Assembly: GCF_000359745.1 (NCBI RefSeq) | Contig: NZ_AQHN01000055.1 | Location: 372,001-436,000 of the forward strand | Length of the DNA: 64,000 nucleotides | Direction of reading: 5' to 3' | Source of the DNA: Rhizobium freirei PRF 81 | Lineage (GTDB): Bacteria; Pseudomonadota; Alphaproteobacteria; Rhizobiales; Rhizobiaceae | Shown: positions 3,320-10,911 of the stretch, piece after piece | Numbering within the stretch: the stretch's first letter is position 1 | Layout of the letters: every line of letters starts with the position of its first letter | Notes under the pieces: generated by a model | Told to the model about the DNA's origin: nothing | The model's database searches: none | The model's input: only the letters and a program-made list of their open reading frames with translations | Made by a program: the position numbers and the translations under genes

Positions 3320-4030
3320 TCAAGGCAAGGTATGGCTTGCCGCAAAGCGCCCATCCTCATTATGCAGACGCAAGGACATTCGCAACATCCAAGGCAGCGA
3401 CGTCCAGAGGCCTGAGGTCAATCCCGCCTGCCTCAGCCCGGCAGCCGTCCAGGTATTGCATCCCATCAGCGCGTTGAAATAGCCCCGTGCTTCGAAGAAC
3501 GCATCGCTTGGTCCGTAATTGCTGCCAGGCAAGGATATCGGGCCACTGTCGGAGCGATCAAAGCTGGCGAGAATGAATTGCTTGAGCCGCTCCAATCCCT
3601 CGGCGTCGATGCTAATCACGGTGACGGCTGGAGCATCCAGCGGAGTATCACCCGCCAGCTCTGCATGGATGACGGAGCGGTCCAGCGTGAAGCTCTTCAG
3701 GACAGGATCCGCCTTCAAATCGGCCCATGTCTTCGTCTCGATATAGAAGCTGCGGCCACCCCAGCCGAAAACGAAATAGCGCAGGTTTGGGTTGTCGAGA
3801 TCGAGCCCGGCGGTCCGCAGGAATGCGAAACGGCTCAGGAGGTCGCCATCGACGGGAATGGCAATATCCGTGTGGATGGGATTGCTGAGCATGAGGATTT
3901 GCTGTGAGCGCTCGGCTTTTCCAACCGGCTCGTCATGCCAGAGCGGCCGCGGTACGACGATGCCGATGCCGACCACCGTCAAGACGGTAAGCATGGCGAA
4001 GAAACCGCCCTTGAGTATCCTTGAAATCAC
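3320..4030 (-). CDS. DUF2459 / TIGR02117 family protein
   Basis: The 236-residue protein has one N-terminal membrane segment (about residues 9-28) and a soluble domain with NPIHTDIAIPV, FGWGGRSFYIET and MGCNTWTAAGLRQAG. These are the conserved blocks of the family first named for genes near urease clusters. Its biochemical role is unknown. The conserved His, Cys and Asn in these blocks could form an active site, but that is inference. The longest frame starts with GTG at 4030; an internal ATG at 3994 is possible but would cut into the membrane segment. Confidence 0.75.
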   Translation of the reverse strand: MISRILKGGFFAMLTVLTVVGIGIVVPRPLWHDEPVGKAERSQQILMLSNPIHTDIAIPVDGDLLSRFAFLRTAGLDLDNPNLRYFVFGWGGRSFYIETKTWADLKADPVLKSFTLDRSVIHAELAGDTPLDAPAVTVISIDAEGLERLKQFILASFDRSDSGPISLPGSNYGPSDAFFEARGYFNALMGCNTWTAAGLRQAGLTSGLWTSLPWMLRMSLRLHNEDGRFAASHTLP

Positions 4031-4157: not shown

Positions 4158-6347
4158 TCAGGCAGCCTTCGTCTTCACCCGTCGCGCCAGGTGCGCCACG
4201 ACATTCTCGATCATCCGCATGCCGGCATCGCCGCCGAGCGTCATGATCGATTCCGGGTGGAACTGCACGGCCGCGATCGGCTCCTTCACATGCTCGATAC
4301 CCATGATCGTGCCGTCTTCGCTCTCGGCCGTGATCATGAAGTCGCGCGGCAAGCTCGACGGATCGGCAAAGATCGAGTGATAGCGGCCGACCGTCACCTC
4401 GCGCCCGAGGCCGGAGAAAACCAGGCCCGGCTCCAGCACACGGATGCGCGAAGGCTTGCCATGCATCGGGATCGCCAGATGACGCAGCTCACCGCCATAG
4501 GCTTCGGCAAGCGCCTGTAGACCCAGGCAGACGCCGAAGATCGGCAGGTTTCGCGCCCTCGCCTTCTTGATCGTCGCCTTGCAATCGAAATCCTTCGGAT
4601 TGCCGGGACCCGGCGACAGCACGACGAGATCCGGATCGAGCCGGTCGAAGACTTCTTCCGGCACCGGCGTACGCACGGTCGAGACCGTCGCGCCCGTCTG
4701 GCGGAAATAATTGGCCAGCGTATGGACGAAGCTGTCTTCATGGTCGACGAGCAGGATCTTCACGCCCTTGCCGACGGAAGCGACGTCACGTTGCTGTTTG
4801 CCGGAATTGCCGGTCTTGGCATCACGGATAGCGGAAAGCATGGCGGAGGCCTTCAGTTCAGTTTCGGCTTCTTCTTCCTCGGGGATCGAATCGTTGAGCA
4901 ACGTCGCGCCGGCCCGCACCTCGGCAATGCCGTCCTTGATGCGAACGGTGCGCAGCGTGAGACCGGTGTTCATGTCGCCATTGAAGCCGACCATGCCGAT
5001 CGCGCCTCCATACCAGGCGCGCGGGCTTTTCTCGTGGTTTTCGATGAAACGCATCGCCCAGAGCTTCGGCGCGCCGGTGACGGTAACGGCCCAGGCGTGG
5101 CTGAGGAAGCCGTCGAAAGCATCCATATCATCGCGCAGGCGGCCTTCGATATGGTCGACCGTGTGGATGAGCCGCGAATACATCTCGATCTGGCGGCGGC
5201 CGATGACCTTCACCGAACCCGGTTCGCAGACGCGGCTCTTGTCGTTGCGGTCGACGTCGGAGCACATGGTCAGCTCGGATTCGTCCTTCTTGGAATTCAG
5301 GAGCTTCAGGATCTGCTCGCTGTCGGCAATCGGATCGTCGCCGCGCTTGATGGTGCCCGAGATCGGGCAGGTCTCGATGCGGCGGCCGGAAACGCGCACG
5401 AACATCTCGGGCGATGCACCGACCAGATATTCCTGATTGCCGAGATTGATGAAGAAGGAATAGGGCGACGGATTGATCGCCTTCAGGCGCTTGGAAATGT
5501 CTGATGGTTTGCTGTCGCAGCGCTCCATGAACTTCTGGCCGGGCACGACTTCGAAAAGATCGCCCTTGCGGAAGCTCTCCTTCGCCTTGACGACCAGCTC
5601 GGCATACTCACCCGGGCGATGGTCGCTCTTCGGCGGAATGGCGTCGGTATGGCGGAACGGCTTGGGCGCGATCTCGCCGGACTTGCCTTCCGTCGATTGG
5701 CCGTCCTTGGCGAAGTCGTAGCGGTCGATCCAGGCCTTGGCGGAATAGTTGTCGACCACCAGAATCTCGTCCGGCAAGTAGAGTACCATGTCGCGCTGAT
5801 CGTTCGGGCGCTCAAGCTTCAGGTTGATGGCGTCGAACTGGAAGGCCAGATCGTAGCCGAAGGCGCCATAGAAGCCGATGCTGGAATCAGCTTGGGAATA
5901 GAACAGTTCGGTCACCGCACGCAGCACGGTGAACACCGTCGGCATCTTAGAGCGCTCTTCCTCGGTGAAGACGCGGTCCGGCGTCTTCACCGTGAGATCA
6001 AGCCGGCGCGGCGTCGAAGCGCCGAGAACGACTTCGGAAACCGTCTTCAGCTTCTCCGCGATTAAGCCGAGGATAACTTCACCGCGCTCGTTATAAGCTT
6101 CGATCCACACATCGCGTCCATTGCAGGAAAGACCGAGCGGCGGGTCGACGATGGCGGTATCCCAACGTGTGTAGCGGCCAGGATATTCGTAGTTGGAGGA
6201 GAAGACCGCGCCGCGGCGCTCGTCGAGCTTGTCGATATAGGACGATACGGCATCCGCATAAGGCGTCGGCCGGCGCTGCCGGGTGACGGTAATGCCGCCC
6301 TTCGTCTCATAGATTTCCGCACCATCATCCCGAAGGATCGTTACCAT
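4158..6347 (-). CDS. trpE(G): Fused anthranilate synthase TrpE(G)
   Basis: This enzyme makes anthranilate from chorismate and glutamine, the committed step of tryptophan synthesis. Residues 1 to about 515 are the chorismate-binding TrpE part ([22 protein letters not shown]). Residues about 530-729 are the glutamine amidotransferase TrpG part, with the nucleophile in [10 protein letters not shown] (near residue 606) and the His/Glu pair in VQFHPES (near residue 697). The fusion in one 729-residue chain is typical of rhizobia and relatives. Upstream lies a complete transcription attenuator with a three-Trp leader peptide, so expression should fall when charged tRNA-Trp is plentiful. No other trp gene is in the window. 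Confidence 0.97.
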
Positions 6348-6394: not shown

Positions 6395-6426
6395 CAAAAA
6401 AGCCGCCTCGAAATCTCGGGCGGCTC
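6395..6426 (-). terminator. trp attenuator terminator
   Basis: On the minus strand AGCCGCC and GGCGGCT form a stem with an inner CGA/TCG extension, followed by six T residues. It lies between the leader peptide and trpE(G). The upstream GGCGGC (plus-strand positions 6457-6462), next to the leader stop codon, can pair with the left arm of this stem. That gives the alternative antiterminator expected for Trp-responsive attenuation. Confidence 0.9.
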
Positions 6427-6462
6427 ACTCGTCGTCTTTGAACACGATTGGTCGAGGCCGCC

Positions 6463-6510
6463 TCAGCGCGCCCACCACCAAACTGCAGTGTTGTTCAAGG
6501 ACATGTTCAT
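6463..6510 (-). CDS. trpL: trp leader peptide TrpL
   Basis: A 15-codon frame reads MNMSLNNTAVWWWAR followed by TGA. Three consecutive Trp codons near the end, the position 37 bases before a terminator hairpin and the trpE(G) gene beyond identify it as the attenuation leader peptide. The related S. meliloti peptide also ends in WWWAR. No ribosome-binding site precedes the first ATG. The best promoter ends only nine bases before it, so the leader may be transcribed from at or very near its own ATG and translated without a 5' leader. A second in-frame ATG lies at codon 3. Confidence 0.92.
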   Translation of the reverse strand: MNMSLNNTAVWWWAR

Positions 6511-6602: not shown

Positions 6603-8126
6603 CTAGTCTTGCGTTCTGGCCGCTTCGAAGAACTCCTCCGGACCATCCACTTCGACCAGCCGCTTCCGGTCGATGAGCCAGAAGCGATTGCCGACCGAGC
6701 GCACGAAACTGCGGTCATGGGAAACGAGCAGGCAGCTTGCCTCGCCTTCCGTCAACTCTTCCTCCAGCGCCTCCTGGCCGTCGATATCCAGATGGTTGGT
6801 CGGCTCGTCCAAGAGATAGAAGTTGGGATTGGTGAGCCGCAGCACCAGCATGGCAAGCCGCGCCTTCTGCCCGCCGGACAGACGGCCGATCTCCTTCCCC
6901 TGCATCTCGATGCCGATTCCGACGCCGGCAAGCACGGTGCGGGCACGCTGCTCGCCGAGCTCGAACAGGCGCGTGATCATCCCAAGCGGCGTGTCGTTCT
7001 GGCCGAGATTGGAGAGCGCCTGGTCGCTATAGCCGAGCACAAGCGACGGCGTCGGCTTGATCGCTCCACCGCCAGACGGATCGGCGATGGCCCTGCGGAT
7101 CATCTCCACGAAGCGTGTCTTGCCGGCGCCATTCCGCCCAAGCAGCACGATGCGATCGCCCTGGCAAATCCACTGCTGGCCGGTCTTGAGCAAAAGCGTA
7201 CCGTCTGGCGTCGTCACGGCGGCATCCTCCAGCGTCAGAAGTACCTTGGCCTGGATGCCGCGATTGGCGAGCTTGATCGAGCCGGAAGAGCGTTCGCGGT
7301 AGCCCGGCCTCGCGCTGTCCTCTAGCTTCTCGGCCCGCGCCTTCAACTGCTTCGTCTTGACGGTCAGCAGATCGCTGCCGGAATTGACGCCCAGATTATA
7401 GAGCTTGGCCGCCTGCTTGCGCAGCTGCTGCGCCGTCTTCATCTCCTTCTGGTAACGACGCTCGTCCGAGGCATCGACCTCATCCAGCGCCATCCGCGCC
7501 CGGCTATAGGGCAGCGCATAGCTCTGCGGCTGCTCCTGACGCAGGAAAAGCGTCCGGTTGCAAACGGCATCGAGGAAGGCGCGGTCGTGGCTGGCGATGA
7601 TCACGGGCACGTCACGCGGCAATGCATTCAGCCAATCCTCCAGCAGCGCGATCTTGGCGAGATCGAGGTGGTTCGTCGGCTCGTCCAGTAGCAGCACGTC
7701 GGGCTCCGTCACCCATACGCGGGCAAGCATGGCAAGCCGCTGCCAGCCGCCGCTGAGCTGGGCAAGCGCCCTCTCCCGCATCGCCGCCGGCACTGCCAAT
7801 GAATCGAGCGTGACATCGACGCGCCAGCTTTCGCTCGCGATCTGCTCCTTCGGCAGCGCGCAGAGAACGGCATCGTAGAAGGAAACTTCCAGCAGGTTCG
7901 CCGGCACATTCTGCTCGACGTAACCGACGCGGAGACCGCGGGCGCGGGTAATATCGCCGGTCGTCGGCTCCTGCCTGCCCGCTAGGCAGTTGAGCAGCGT
8001 GGTTTTTCCGCGTCCGTTCGCGGCCACGATGCCGACGCGATCACCGGCATCGACGGTGAAGTTGAGATTGGAAAACAAAGGCGCACTCATGGTGACGCCG
8101 AGATTGCGGAGGTTGATCAGAGCCAT
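6603..8126 (-). CDS. ABC-F family ATP-binding protein
   Basis: The 507-residue soluble protein has two ATP-binding cassettes and no membrane domain, the hallmark of ABC-F ribosome-associated ATPases (translation factors or antibiotic-protection proteins). Cassette 1 has Walker A AANGRGKTT and signature LSGGWQR; cassette 2 has GRNGAGKTR and LSGGQKARL. Both have LLDEPTNHLDL-type Walker B segments. The linker (about residues 230-275) is charged and helical. Both Walker A motifs deviate slightly from the usual GPNGAGKST. It cannot be assigned to Uup, EttA or a named resistance type. A 23-codon ORF with a strong RBS lies 187 bases upstream on the same strand and may control it. Confidence 0.88.
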   Translation of the reverse strand: MALINLRNLGVTMSAPLFSNLNFTVDAGDRVGIVAANGRGKTTLLNCLAGRQEPTTGDITRARGLRVGYVEQNVPANLLEVSFYDAVLCALPKEQIASESWRVDVTLDSLAVPAAMRERALAQLSGGWQRLAMLARVWVTEPDVLLLDEPTNHLDLAKIALLEDWLNALPRDVPVIIASHDRAFLDAVCNRTLFLRQEQPQSYALPYSRARMALDEVDASDERRYQKEMKTAQQLRKQAAKLYNLGVNSGSDLLTVKTKQLKARAEKLEDSARPGYRERSSGSIKLANRGIQAKVLLTLEDAAVTTPDGTLLLKTGQQWICQGDRIVLLGRNGAGKTRFVEMIRRAIADPSGGGAIKPTPSLVLGYSDQALSNLGQNDTPLGMITRLFELGEQRARTVLAGVGIGIEMQGKEIGRLSGGQKARLAMLVLRLTNPNFYLLDEPTNHLDIDGQEALEEELTEGEASCLLVSHDRSFVRSVGNRFWLIDRKRLVEVDGPEEFFEAARTQD

Positions 8127-8313
8127 GGTCTTTTCCGGTCTTGCTCGAGCATTCCTTAGACATCGCCGCCGGCTCCTCTTGCCGCGCTGCAGATGCGGTT
8201 GGCCATATGCCGGCCAATGCTCGAAAACATGTCATGACGCGGCCGCGCAAAAGCGTGAGCCTGCGTCTCCCAAAAGGGCAGACCAGAAGAAGTGAGTGAG
8301 TGACAGCCTCTGA

Positions 8314-8385
8314 TCAGCCCTGCAAACGCATCTGCAGGGCACGATTCGGACCGAACTGGCGAATATGCCAGACTATCTTTGTCAC
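8314..8385 (-). CDS. Candidate 23-residue leader ORF upstream of the ABC-F gene
   Basis: A GTG-initiated frame encodes MTKIVWHIRQFGPNRALQMR and three more residues (LQG), ending in TGA. It is preceded by an excellent GAGGAGG ribosome-binding site five bases before the start. The final codons lie in a perfect 8-bp stem (GCCCTGCA pairing with TGCAGGGC, plus positions 8317-8340). Part of that stem can instead pair over 11 bases with positions 8187-8197, about 60 bases before the ABC-F start. It could be a leader peptide or an unrelated small protein downstream of the receptor gene. No homologue is recognised. Confidence 0.4.
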   Translation of the reverse strand: MTKIVWHIRQFGPNRALQMRLQG

Positions 8386-8551
8386 ACGGTCCTCCTCTCT
8401 TTTCTCTCAATAGGCTTAAAGACTGCGCATCTCCCATAACACCGGAGGATACGATTTGCAATTGCACAAGCCGTCCGACACCACCCTAAAAAGAGCAAGA
8501 AGAGGCGACGCCGAAGCATCGCCCCTAAGCTTGCTGCGCCGATGAAACCGC

Positions 8552-10783
8552 TTAGAACCGCTGGGTCAGCGTCAGCTTGAAGGTCCGGCCGGGCTCGGAA
8601 TAGTAGGCCGCGGGCTGGGTTTGCGTGCCGCTGTAAGATGGAGAATTGAGCGAGTCGTAGTAGGTTTTGTTGAAGATGTTGTAGATACCGCCGCGGATGG
8701 TGAGCCCCTTCACCGGCTCCGGCTCCCACCAGCCCGTCAGATCGAAGATGCCGTAGCCGGGCGCGCGCAAGGTATCGCCCGTCTTTTTCGGCTCGCTGGT
8801 CGCGGTGACGAAGGTCAGGTCCGTTCCCCAGACTTCGGTGGCGTAGCCGACCGTGAAGGCCGCCTTTGCCGGAGCAACGGAGTCGATCCATTGGCCGGTG
8901 TCGGAGTCCTTGCCGTTGACATAGGCAAGAGCGCCCTTGATGTGCATGCCGTTGTCGAACGTCTTGTGCGCGTTCATCTCGACACCGTACATGCGGACAT
9001 TGGCACGATTGAAGTATTCGGTAATGCCAAGCGGATAGGTGCCGGTCGGATCGTTCGACCGCGACGTGTCGATGAAGTTCCTGTACTTATTGTAGAAGAC
9101 GCCGACATGGCCGCCGAAATCGTCGTCGCCGAGATTGGTGCCGATTTCGATGCCGTTGCTGGTTTCGGGCTTCAGGTTGGGGTTGCCGTAGCTGACATAG
9201 CCGCCGGGCACGCCGTAGTTCACATAGAGTTCGCTGACGTTGGGCGCTCGGAAAGCCATGGCCCACTGCGCGTAAAGCTCGATATTGTCTTGCGGCTGAT
9301 ACGAAGCGCGCAGCTTCGGCGAGATGCGGCTGTCCGACTGGCCGGCAGGCAGGCCCTGATAGTTGGCGCTGTCGCGGAAGGCGGCCGTGTTCTTCGGCGA
9401 GTAGTCATACCAGTCGAAGCGCAGGCCCGGCGTCAGCGAGAAGCCGCTGGAGCCGAATTCGATCTTGTCGTCGATGAAAGCGCCGACGCGCTTGCTGTCC
9501 ACATCGGGCATGTCGGACTGGTTGGTATGCAGGAACGAGCAAGAGAAGGCCCAGCGCGGATTGGCGCAACTATCCTTGCCGGCCGAATACTGATGCACCT
9601 TGCCGAAAGACGTATCGAGACCGAAGGTGACCTTGTGATGCAGGCTGCCGGTGTCGAACGACTTCGACGCGTTGCCGCTAAAGCCGATGCTGCGGTTCTC
9701 CATTTCGTTGCGGCGCCAATAGTCGCCGATAACGGAGGTGTAACGGTAGCCTTTGACACCGTTTTCACGCAGGAGATTCTGCCAATAGAAAACGGCATTG
9801 GCGGTCTCGAGGAGAGAATCGGCGCTCTCTGCTTCATACTTGTAATCGAGCGAGATGCGATTGCGCTCTACGTTGTCGGTCTGATCGTAGTTGCCGGGCC
9901 GGAAGTTGCCGGTCGGGCTCTGCAGATGCATCGCATCGATCGTCTTGTCTTTGTTGTAATGCTCCGCCGTGATGCCGAATGTGCCGATATCGGTATATTG
10001 GCGGATTTTGAAGAGGCCGCTCTTCTGATTGTAGTCGGCCGGATCCGCCTCCGTGCGCTTGGTCGAATAGCCGCCGATATCGCCGTTGTTCTCAAGCTCG
10101 TGACCACGCGTATAGCCACCCTCGAAAAGAACGGCAGTATTGTCGATGCGCTTGGCAATCGCCGCCGACCCGCCGATGCTCCGGTCATCGCCATTATAGC
10201 CGAACTTGAAGACGCCGCCCCAGTTAGAACCGGGCGCGATCAGATCCTCGGGCTCCAGCGTGCGCAGCACGAAGGCGCCGCCGAGAGCCCTCGAACCGCC
10301 GCGGCTGGAATCGGCACCACGTACGATGTCGACACTGGAAAGCGCGTTGAAATCGAAGCTGTTGATACCGCCTTTGGCATCGCGGGAGGCGTCGAGCAGA
10401 TAGGGGATTTCGATGCCGTCGACCGTCGTCAGGACACGATCGTCGCCAAGACCGCGAATGTTGACGCCACCCGTGGTGCGATTGAAGCCAACGCCGACCT
10501 CGGTGCTCCGACCGAGATCCTCGACACGCGTGATCTGCTTGTCGTCGATTTCCTTTGCCGTCGTCTCGCTCGCGGTCGGAGAGTCGGCGAGCACATCCTG
10601 CGTCGCCTTGGCCTTACCCTTGACGACGATCGGCTTCAGATTGGTCACACGATCGCCCTTGGCAGTCTCGCCCGTTGCCGCGTCGTTCTGGGTTGTTGTT
10701 TGCGCAAAAGATGTCGTCGCCAGCGCAAGGGCGAAAAACGCAGTGCATGCCAAGAGGGTCGAGCGGTAGCGCCGGACAACCAT
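8552..10783 (-). CDS. TonB-dependent outer-membrane receptor, heme/hemoglobin type
   Basis: This is a 22-stranded outer-membrane receptor for TonB/ExbBD-energised uptake, most like the hemoglobin/transferrin/lactoferrin receptor group that includes rhizobial ShmR/HmuR. A signal peptide covers about the first 29 residues. The plug domain holds VLTTVDGIEIPY and VDIVRGADSSRGGSRALGGA. The barrel contains the FRAP and NPNL boxes (AFRAPNVSEL, GNPNLKPET) and ends in a C-terminal Phe (LTLTQRF). No His lies between FRAP and NPNL, unlike many heme receptors. Of two in-frame ATGs the second (10783) has AAAGGA at proper spacing; the first (10789) directly abuts it. Two TGA-N9-TCA iron operators lie upstream. 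Confidence 0.87.
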   Translation of the reverse strand: MVVRRYRSTLLACTAFFALALATTSFAQTTTQNDAATGETAKGDRVTNLKPIVVKGKAKATQDVLADSPTASETTAKEIDDKQITRVEDLGRSTEVGVGFNRTTGGVNIRGLGDDRVLTTVDGIEIPYLLDASRDAKGGINSFDFNALSSVDIVRGADSSRGGSRALGGAFVLRTLEPEDLIAPGSNWGGVFKFGYNGDDRSIGGSAAIAKRIDNTAVLFEGGYTRGHELENNGDIGGYSTKRTEADPADYNQKSGLFKIRQYTDIGTFGITAEHYNKDKTIDAMHLQSPTGNFRPGNYDQTDNVERNRISLDYKYEAESADSLLETANAVFYWQNLLRENGVKGYRYTSVIGDYWRRNEMENRSIGFSGNASKSFDTGSLHHKVTFGLDTSFGKVHQYSAGKDSCANPRWAFSCSFLHTNQSDMPDVDSKRVGAFIDDKIEFGSSGFSLTPGLRFDWYDYSPKNTAAFRDSANYQGLPAGQSDSRISPKLRASYQPQDNIELYAQWAMAFRAPNVSELYVNYGVPGGYVSYGNPNLKPETSNGIEIGTNLGDDDFGGHVGVFYNKYRNFIDTSRSNDPTGTYPLGITEYFNRANVRMYGVEMNAHKTFDNGMHIKGALAYVNGKDSDTGQWIDSVAPAKAAFTVGYATEVWGTDLTFVTATSEPKKTGDTLRAPGYGIFDLTGWWEPEPVKGLTIRGGIYNIFNKTYYDSLNSPSYSGTQTQPAAYYSEPGRTFKLTLTQRF

Positions 10784-10911
10784 AACCATTCCTTTCGAAT
10801 TGCTTCACCGGGCTGGCTGGTTGCTGCATCGGAAGCAGACAAGGGGCTGGCTGGGTAGGTTTTGTTAACAGGACGGAAATATTCCGCCTTCTTTCTGCCG
10901 CATAGAAAACA

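Follow-up and report, generated by a model that had tools for sequence, protein, structure and literature searches.

The DNA analysed here, a stretch of 64,000 nucleotides from Rhizobium freirei PRF 81 (the window, whose coordinates are used throughout), carries on its minus strand an ABC-F ATPase gene (6603..8126), the controlled gene of this study, and the upstream neighbour of its leader is a gene for a TonB-dependent receptor of the haem/haemoglobin type (8552-10789). A terminator-like hairpin with a T-rich tail lies directly after the receptor gene (8526-8501, minus strand) and, as seen from the terminator scan of the window, separates the receptor from the ABC-F leader. About 50 nt ahead of the start of a short upstream open reading frame (uORF), the promoter-like motif TTGCAA-N16-TTATGG was located (8434..8461, minus strand); this window copy was not called by the strict consensus scanner. 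In 86 of 102 representatives, the looser pattern TTGNNN-N15..19-TA(T/A/C) precedes the uORF start by 30-95 nt, as compared to 11 on average and at most 19 in 200 shuffles, which suggests that the transcript starts ahead of the uORF. Both this pattern and the terminator-like site behind the receptor gene speak against an ABC-F transcription start downstream of 8314, which an earlier reading made from the letters alone had named as a refutation of its proposal.

The uORF itself (MTKIVWHIRQFGPNRALQMRLQG, 8314..8385, minus strand) consists of a GTG start and 23 codons in all, followed by TGA, and is preceded by the Shine-Dalgarno sequence GAGGAGG (8391..8397, minus strand); that earlier reading (the sequence-only reading) had pointed to this motif ahead of the frame 8385-8314, and both are indeed present on the minus strand. 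Codons 12-17 read GPxxAL, of which the Gly-Pro codons GGT CCG (8347..8352, minus strand) form a putative stall motif. The hairpin at 8317-8340, described in the same reading as perfect over 8 bp, comprises eight Watson-Crick pairs and a TGCG loop, or ten pairs when one G-U and one more A-U are counted. Its 5' arm, which is supported by covariation, is referred to as segment 1 (GCCCTGCAGA, 8331..8340) and its 3' arm as the core of segment 2 (TTTGCAGGGC, 8317..8326). As used in the alternative helix 2:3, segment 2 corresponds to GGGCTGATCAGAGG (8307..8320) and includes the uORF stop codon. Segment 3 (TTCTTCTGGTCTGCCC, 8276..8291) is the partner of either segment 2 or segment 4, and segment 4 (AGACCGGAA, 8133..8141) occupies positions -15 to -7 relative to the ABC-F start and faces 8280-8288 in helix 3:4. 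Finally, CTCTGATCA in ABC-F codons 2-5 (8114..8122) is the complement of 8308-8316; all these segments lie on the minus strand. Between the uORF and the ABC-F gene (8314 to 8126), a scan of the window, and of the window alone, found no terminator-like site on the minus strand, as the sequence-only reading had stated, and hence no intrinsic terminator of the VmlR/MsrD type.

The leader had no Rfam match at the gathering score, and a search with 8050-8552 returned only four matches, with E-values of 1.5-3.1. Elsewhere in the window, a match to the RcsR1 sRNA family (RF02552, 106 bits) was found at 6396-6491 (minus strand), just upstream of gene 4158-6347, which we take to be trpE-like. RcsR1 is presumably the trp leader/attenuator sRNA of rhizobia and, on that assumption, another uORF-controlled system 1.8 kb away. 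In several Rhizobium loci (L035, L124-L127, L130), the gene immediately preceding the leader also encodes an ABC-F-like protein, with about 30% identity.

The product of the controlled gene has the two ABC domains, the interdomain linker and the fold of an ABC-F ATPase. The best family model was NF000355 (ribosomal protection-like ABC-F) with 302.7 bits, below the NCBIfam cut-off of 380, and by this cut-off the protein is not assigned to the antibiotic-resistance (ARE) ABC-F proteins. By sequence, the best solved relatives are VmlR2 and E. coli YheS, and VmlR2 (PDB 8buu) was the best-matching solved ABC-F by both sequence and Foldseek. Comparison of the predicted model (mean pLDDT 88.8) with VmlR2 gave 29% identity over 479 aligned residues, a Z-score of 33.4 and an rmsd of 4.4, scores about equalled by human ABCF1 (Z 33.9), VgaL (33.2) and EttA (32.2); VmlR2 shares the two-ABC fold and is too distant for its drug spectrum to be transferred. 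The linker motif NSGSDLL was kept in all six close sequences, that of the window included. An insertion between the first-domain motifs, presumably the Arm, is found in several distant ABC-F sequences and is missing from the window protein. As judged from the predicted model, structure comparison confirms an ABC-F protein and does not separate a resistance factor from a housekeeping one.

Conservation and Distribution of the Leader

Orthologous upstream regions were collected from the family and order genomes with an ABC-F match at E ≤ 1e-110 (57/297 and 41/297 genomes, respectively), from 98 genus genomes and from named contigs, giving 186 regions; two loci without a recognisable ABC-F start (L212 and L252) were left out before counting, and two genomes are represented twice (L032/L254 and L033/L199). 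Within the genus Rhizobium, 98 of 148 genomes were taken, 97 of which entered the leader analysis, the remainder being known by DNA match alone. In 183 of the 186 regions, the hairpin is preceded by a uORF of 15-27 codons in which Gly-Pro falls within codons 10-16, and 182 of these 183 leaders carry an SD-like motif. The leader finder required GP and an SD-like motif, favoured AL/AP and kept the shortest frame among the possible starts; L132, which lacks an SD-like motif, and L157 are manual additions. The three regions without an intact GP leader are of different kinds, namely a uORF without GP (L198), a hairpin without an intact uORF (L259) and a region with neither (L214). The combined test for a GP-containing uORF plus stem was passed by 182/186 native regions as compared to 7/3,720 shuffles. 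It was passed by none of 73 other regions, each a stretch of 420 bases preceding position 4000 in one of the loci L036-L110; 62 of them lie directly upstream of a distant ABC-F match and 11 count as random-region controls, since there the ABC-F match does not start at position 4000. The sequence-only reading had tied its proposal to conservation of the frame and its pairings among close relatives: the frame is kept in 183/186 loci, whereas the alternative pairing that it named is not (see below).

A DNA search with 8127-8551 matched all 148 genus genomes searched, and the core shared by most of them consists of the hairpin and the 43 bases after it. The distance from the hairpin to the ABC-F start is 100-253 bases and the gene further upstream varies; therefore, the leader belongs to the ABC-F gene. 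Its specificity was further analysed by searching 385 genomes of Alphaproteobacteria with a covariance model built from the leader; 31 of these genomes had a match at E ≤ 0.01 (35 places). All 13 places with E-values of 6e-7 or lower are situated just upstream of an ABC-F homologue, with 50-64% identity outside the window's own genome, and the latter has one strong match. Eleven of the 13 are independent, one of the others being the window and one (G254) having been in the model. The independent strong matches come from eight families outside the order, and nine of the eleven contain Gly-Pro, the other two reading RGSV and RQPV. These distant leaders (L276 and L278, in place of xGPx) keep the hairpin and the Ala. 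The remaining 22 places (E 3e-4 to 0.01) were collectively treated as chance; of the loci retrieved for them, L282 and L287 alone resemble ABC-F, at 24-28% identity. An exact motif scan of the 385 genomes yielded two matches only, the criterion being too strict. A specific link of the leader to this ABC-F gene is shown by this comparison of genome sequences.

The leader was also present in all five plasmid records examined of the 12 that matched (S. meliloti M162, M270 and three others); leader-bearing plasmid records other than those of S. meliloti include Ketogulonicigenium vulgare SKV, Pararhizobium qamdonense and Gemmobacter fulvus. The uORF does not appear in the annotation of the four annotated plasmid records, of which the gene table is incomplete.

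Codon usage distinguishes what is held in the peptide from what is held in the RNA. In 146 distinct leader windows, Gly is encoded by GGC (99), GGT (44), GGA (2) and GGG (1), and Pro by CCC (66), CCG (36), CCT (30) and CCA (14). Since every synonymous Gly and Pro codon is in use, it is the peptide (Gly-Pro) itself that is selected. By contrast, the stem begins with the codon for the Ala four positions after Gly, and this codon is GCC in 146/146 windows, so that GP is conserved at the amino-acid level and the stem at the RNA level. Because the finder required GP, its presence in every one of the 146 windows in part reflects the search itself; the figures free of this condition are the 183/186 loci and the 9/11 independent model matches. 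The residue before GP is Arg, Phe, His or Tyr in 178/183 leaders, and 9-15 residues precede the Gly. This upstream segment is rich in Arg, His, Phe and Gln, and among its 954 residues in 97 distinct segments only 3 Gly, 6 Ala, 4 Glu and 13 Pro were counted, a composition judged against a background of three window proteins only and in related segments, so that p-values are not independent.

The frame of several lineages terminates within the hairpin, and in L175, L206, L260 and L274 it stops right after Ala-Leu, in the 5' arm, from which it follows that the leader tail is dispensable. The tail MRLQG of the window leader, considered as a macrolide-type R/K-x-R/K motif, was rejected: it is not R-x-R/K, and it is no motif because the tail changes with the stem, with LRACLQG, LHHHVLQG, ALHK and others in its place. 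An arrest peptide of the RAPP/RAGP type (R-[AG]-[PG]-P core) was likewise rejected, RAGP, RAPP and RGPP being found in 0/183 leaders. Beside the window leader, the MQYYFRFNRQRGPVNALQMRLQG-type leader is named as a leader type.

Alternative RNA Helices

Structural tests were carried out with 102 representatives, or with 66, 87 or 101 of these where stated. Across 66 diverse sequences, hairpin 1:2 was paired in 98.0% of cells, and 5 of its 10 pairs had changed on both sides. Its covariation amounted to 0.212 as compared to 0.109 after shuffling, with 0/500 shuffles as high and all slid controls lower, and the native arms folded better than chimeric ones in 94/102 representatives. For helix 2:3 (8307-8320 with 8276-8291), the local fold had a mean z of -1.95 in the 102 representatives, 88% of them below -1, and native energies were below those of the chimera in 71/101. 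Helix 3:4 (8280-8288 with 8133-8141) recurs as the alternative helix over the ABC-F ribosome-binding site (RBS): native arms were better than chimeras in 63/102 and better than pairing with neighbouring windows in 93/102. Among the 87 representatives with recognisable segments its mean length was 7.66 as compared to 7.11 after permutation (0/2,000 permutations as high), and the start of the segment 4 motif CAGACCAGAG, or of the sequence closest to it, falls at -17 in 107/183 loci and at -16 in 33/183. Per-column permutation support for 3:4 was modest because its core is nearly invariant, and ungapped helices compared with mononucleotide shuffles reached p < 0.05 in just 25% (3:4) and 10% (2:3) of the 102. 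When RNA duplexes were computed for the segment 3 region with the RBS region, the energies were -28.8 for native, -27.0 for swapped and -21.9 for mid-region combinations; this test was replaced by the stricter ones because it allowed long loops. The Brucella-type leader has other letters, a strong 2:3 fold (z -4.84 in L033) and a 3:4 helix made of GGCAGAAT facing ATTCTGCC. Comparison across lineages shows support for the three predicted helices 1:2, 2:3 and 3:4.

Segments 3 and 4, which form the recurring alternative helices, had not figured in the sequence-only reading. That reading had instead paired eleven bases of the hairpin (8327-8337) with 8187-8197. The complement CGCATCTGCAG exists in the window and is not conserved: it is complete in 2/183 relatives, with at least nine bases in 6/183, and this pairing looks coincidental since its full form is so rare. 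An exact 9-base complement between the segment following the hairpin and early ABC-F codons was found in 37/183 loci, all of them in the genus, and the pairing of 8308-8316 with ABC-F codons 2-5 is a possible extra lock of the off state.

The effect of a stalled ribosome was imitated by making segment 1 unavailable (masking) in RNAs ending at the ABC-F start codon. In the 102 representatives, the expected pairs of 2:3 rose from 2.9 to 10.9 and those of 3:4 fell from 9.4 to 6.0, with a loss of more than three 3:4 pairs in only 49/102. The RBS became more open in 78/102 (p 2e-11), by more than 0.1 in 46, and closed by more than 0.1 in three; it was not more open in 24/102, including the same-genus relatives L010, L021 and L112. 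When the hairpin was kept and the preceding sequence removed, values stayed near the unmasked ones (2:3 4.1, 3:4 10.2, RBS openness 0.454 vs. 0.451). For the window RNA, masking increased 2:3 from 0.6 to 14.2 pairs, decreased 3:4 from 8.8 to 4.6 and raised RBS openness from 0.49 to 0.64. On masking, the minimum free energy structure of the window RNA ending just before the start codon switched from helix 3:4 to helix 2:3, with weak re-pairing elsewhere of five segment 4 bases (CCGGA). With 30 nt of coding sequence included, the masked RBS was more open in 63/102, and the equilibrium fold of the window RNA stayed off despite masking, partly because 8308-8316 also pairs with ABC-F codons 2-5. 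Consequently, the switch in the window would depend on folding order.

Discussion

The leader combines a uORF under amino-acid selection with mutually exclusive predicted helices, one of them over the RBS, as expected of a uORF-dependent translational attenuator. We propose that the leader is an ermC-type translational attenuator of the ABC-F gene, which is turned on when a ribosome stalls in the uORF, and we regard this as likely. In the off state, ribosomes would translate the 23-codon uORF and leave, whereupon hairpin 1:2 would form and permit segment 3 to pair with segment 4, covering the ABC-F RBS. A ribosome stalled in the GPxxAL stretch (codons 12-17) would cover segment 1, and segment 2, thereby freed, would pair with the emerging segment 3, so that segment 4 would be released and ABC-F translated. 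Once made, the ABC-F protein would work on the ribosome, most likely by lifting the inhibition behind the stall. Here, we infer that the uORF is translated, that ribosomes stall on it and at which codon, that a ribosome-targeting small molecule is the cause and what ABC-F does; an antibiotic is the presumed inducer. According to the toeprint distance in the portion of the VmlR report available (PMC9226507), some 16 bases separate the leading edge of the ribosome from the P-site codon. At this distance, a ribosome with Pro or either of the next two codons in its P-site would occupy segment 1 largely or completely, while segment 2 stays accessible. Gly, Pro and Ala are brought together in the very part of the peptide at which stalling would mask segment 1, and the leader geometry fits an ermC-type switch. 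Leader-peptide attenuation of the ABC-F gene, as suggested in the sequence-only reading, fits the comparative evidence, whereas the switch proposed there through 8187-8197 is not conserved; its view that control acts on translation rather than via an intrinsic terminator agrees with the comparative evidence and with the lack of a terminator in the window.

Tentatively, the GPxxAL leader may be a sensor with an undescribed stall code, reporting some class of ribosome inhibitors encountered by soil Alphaproteobacteria, and the ABC-F protein a dedicated protector, the two together forming an undescribed inducible ABC-F resistance system of Gram-negatives. The nearest stall rules, in those parts of the literature that were available, are the Gly-codon-specific one of bottromycin and the Ala-dependent one of chloramphenicol. 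The leader offers a handle on the question from which compounds soil Alphaproteobacteria protect their ribosomes, and on whether Gly-Pro in a short nascent chain can be a conditional stall signal, and it is a ready-made reporter for inducer screening.

The same RNA switch could also operate without a drug if GPxxAL stalled by itself when ABC-F is scarce and ABC-F resolved the stall, in which case the leader would measure ABC-F activity. This feedback by intrinsic arrest, which we consider rather unlikely, would be in line with the available text of a study of arrest peptides (PMC12992588), where Gly-Pro ends the SecM core RAGP, RGPP and RAPP are strong arrest cores and ABCF proteins are named among translation-enhancing factors, as well as with the action of MsrD on its own stalled leader complex in the part of that report available (PMC10314930) and with the Arg, Phe, His or Tyr found before GP in 178/183 leaders. 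Against it, just 9-15 residues precede the Gly and RAPP, RGPP and RAGP occur in 0/183 leaders; moreover, the gene is found in 57/297 family genomes at E ≤ 1e-110, unlike a housekeeping factor, yet the leader DNA is present in 148/148 genomes of the genus. Alternatively, stalling in the uORF or loss of its translation might control Rho-dependent termination instead of RBS access. Precedents, as far as the accessible sections of the reports go, are a DUF1127 gene of S. meliloti under uORF-dependent, presumably Rho-dependent, attenuation (PMC12218461) and the leaders of VmlR and MsrD, which act at least partly by termination (PMC9226507, PMC10314930). However, the window has no intrinsic terminator between the uORF and the gene, and segment 4 keeps its place directly ahead of the start codon, a constraint not expected from termination alone; such transcription attenuation therefore seems improbable. 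The palindrome GCCCTGCAAATGCGTTTGCAGGGC is a near-perfect inverted repeat whose arms are conserved, and it might instead serve a repressor as its operator in the DNA, the uORF being incidental; this is very hard to reconcile with the G-U pairs common in the stem (11/66 and 20/66 at two inner positions), which break a DNA palindrome, with the compensating changes in the arms, with the position of the palindrome at the end of a frame that 183/186 loci retain and with the accompanying segments 3 and 4.

The proposed translational attenuator resembles ermC/ErmCL where, according to the excerpts available, a uORF, a stalled ribosome and alternative RNA structures likewise hide or expose the RBS of the controlled gene. 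The ErmCL leader motif is IFVI, instead of which the present leader has GPxxAL; furthermore, the gene controlled here is an ABC-F gene and the setting is Alphaproteobacteria. The leaders of VmlR, CplR and MsrD also are uORFs controlling ABC-F genes, in Gram-positive bacteria, and in the available portions of these reports (PMC9226507, PMC10201436, PMC10314930) their uORFs comprise only 3 to 6 residues (MIN, MRI, MYLIFM) in leaders with intrinsic terminators, whereas the present uORF has 15-27 codons, a conserved Gly-Pro and no terminator found in the window. From the same portions, the VmlR leader has an SD-sequestering hairpin (PMC9226507), and the terminator hairpin of CplR also hides the SD sequence, with translational attenuation and with premature termination not being essential for induction (PMC10201436). 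In a rhizobium, the uORF of the S. meliloti DUF1127 gene likewise gives uORF-dependent attenuation, which is tetracycline-responsive; as far as described in the accessible text (PMC12218461), it differs in being transcription attenuation, presumably through Rho, with C-rich elements and a different gene; ABCF is mentioned there in a reference title only. Arrest peptides of the SecM/RAPP type similarly have Gly-Pro or Pro-Pro in an upstream-encoded arrest core; in the available part of the study (PMC12992588), their cores are RAGP, RAPP and RGPP, mostly in small secretory or membrane proteins, and these cores occur in none of the 183 leaders analysed here.

A search of the open-access literature found no ABC-F leader described for Rhizobium or for Alphaproteobacteria. 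Attenuation of ABC-F genes by leaders and switches of the ermC type are already known, and CplR, in the text available, is an ABC-F leader acting on translation. As new we rate the Gram-negative setting, the longer GPxxAL leader with its unrecognised motif and the apparent lack of a terminator. The inducible ABC-F leaders considered for comparison are Gram-positive with very short uORFs, and the present one is a conserved Gram-negative leader with a defined, testable motif.
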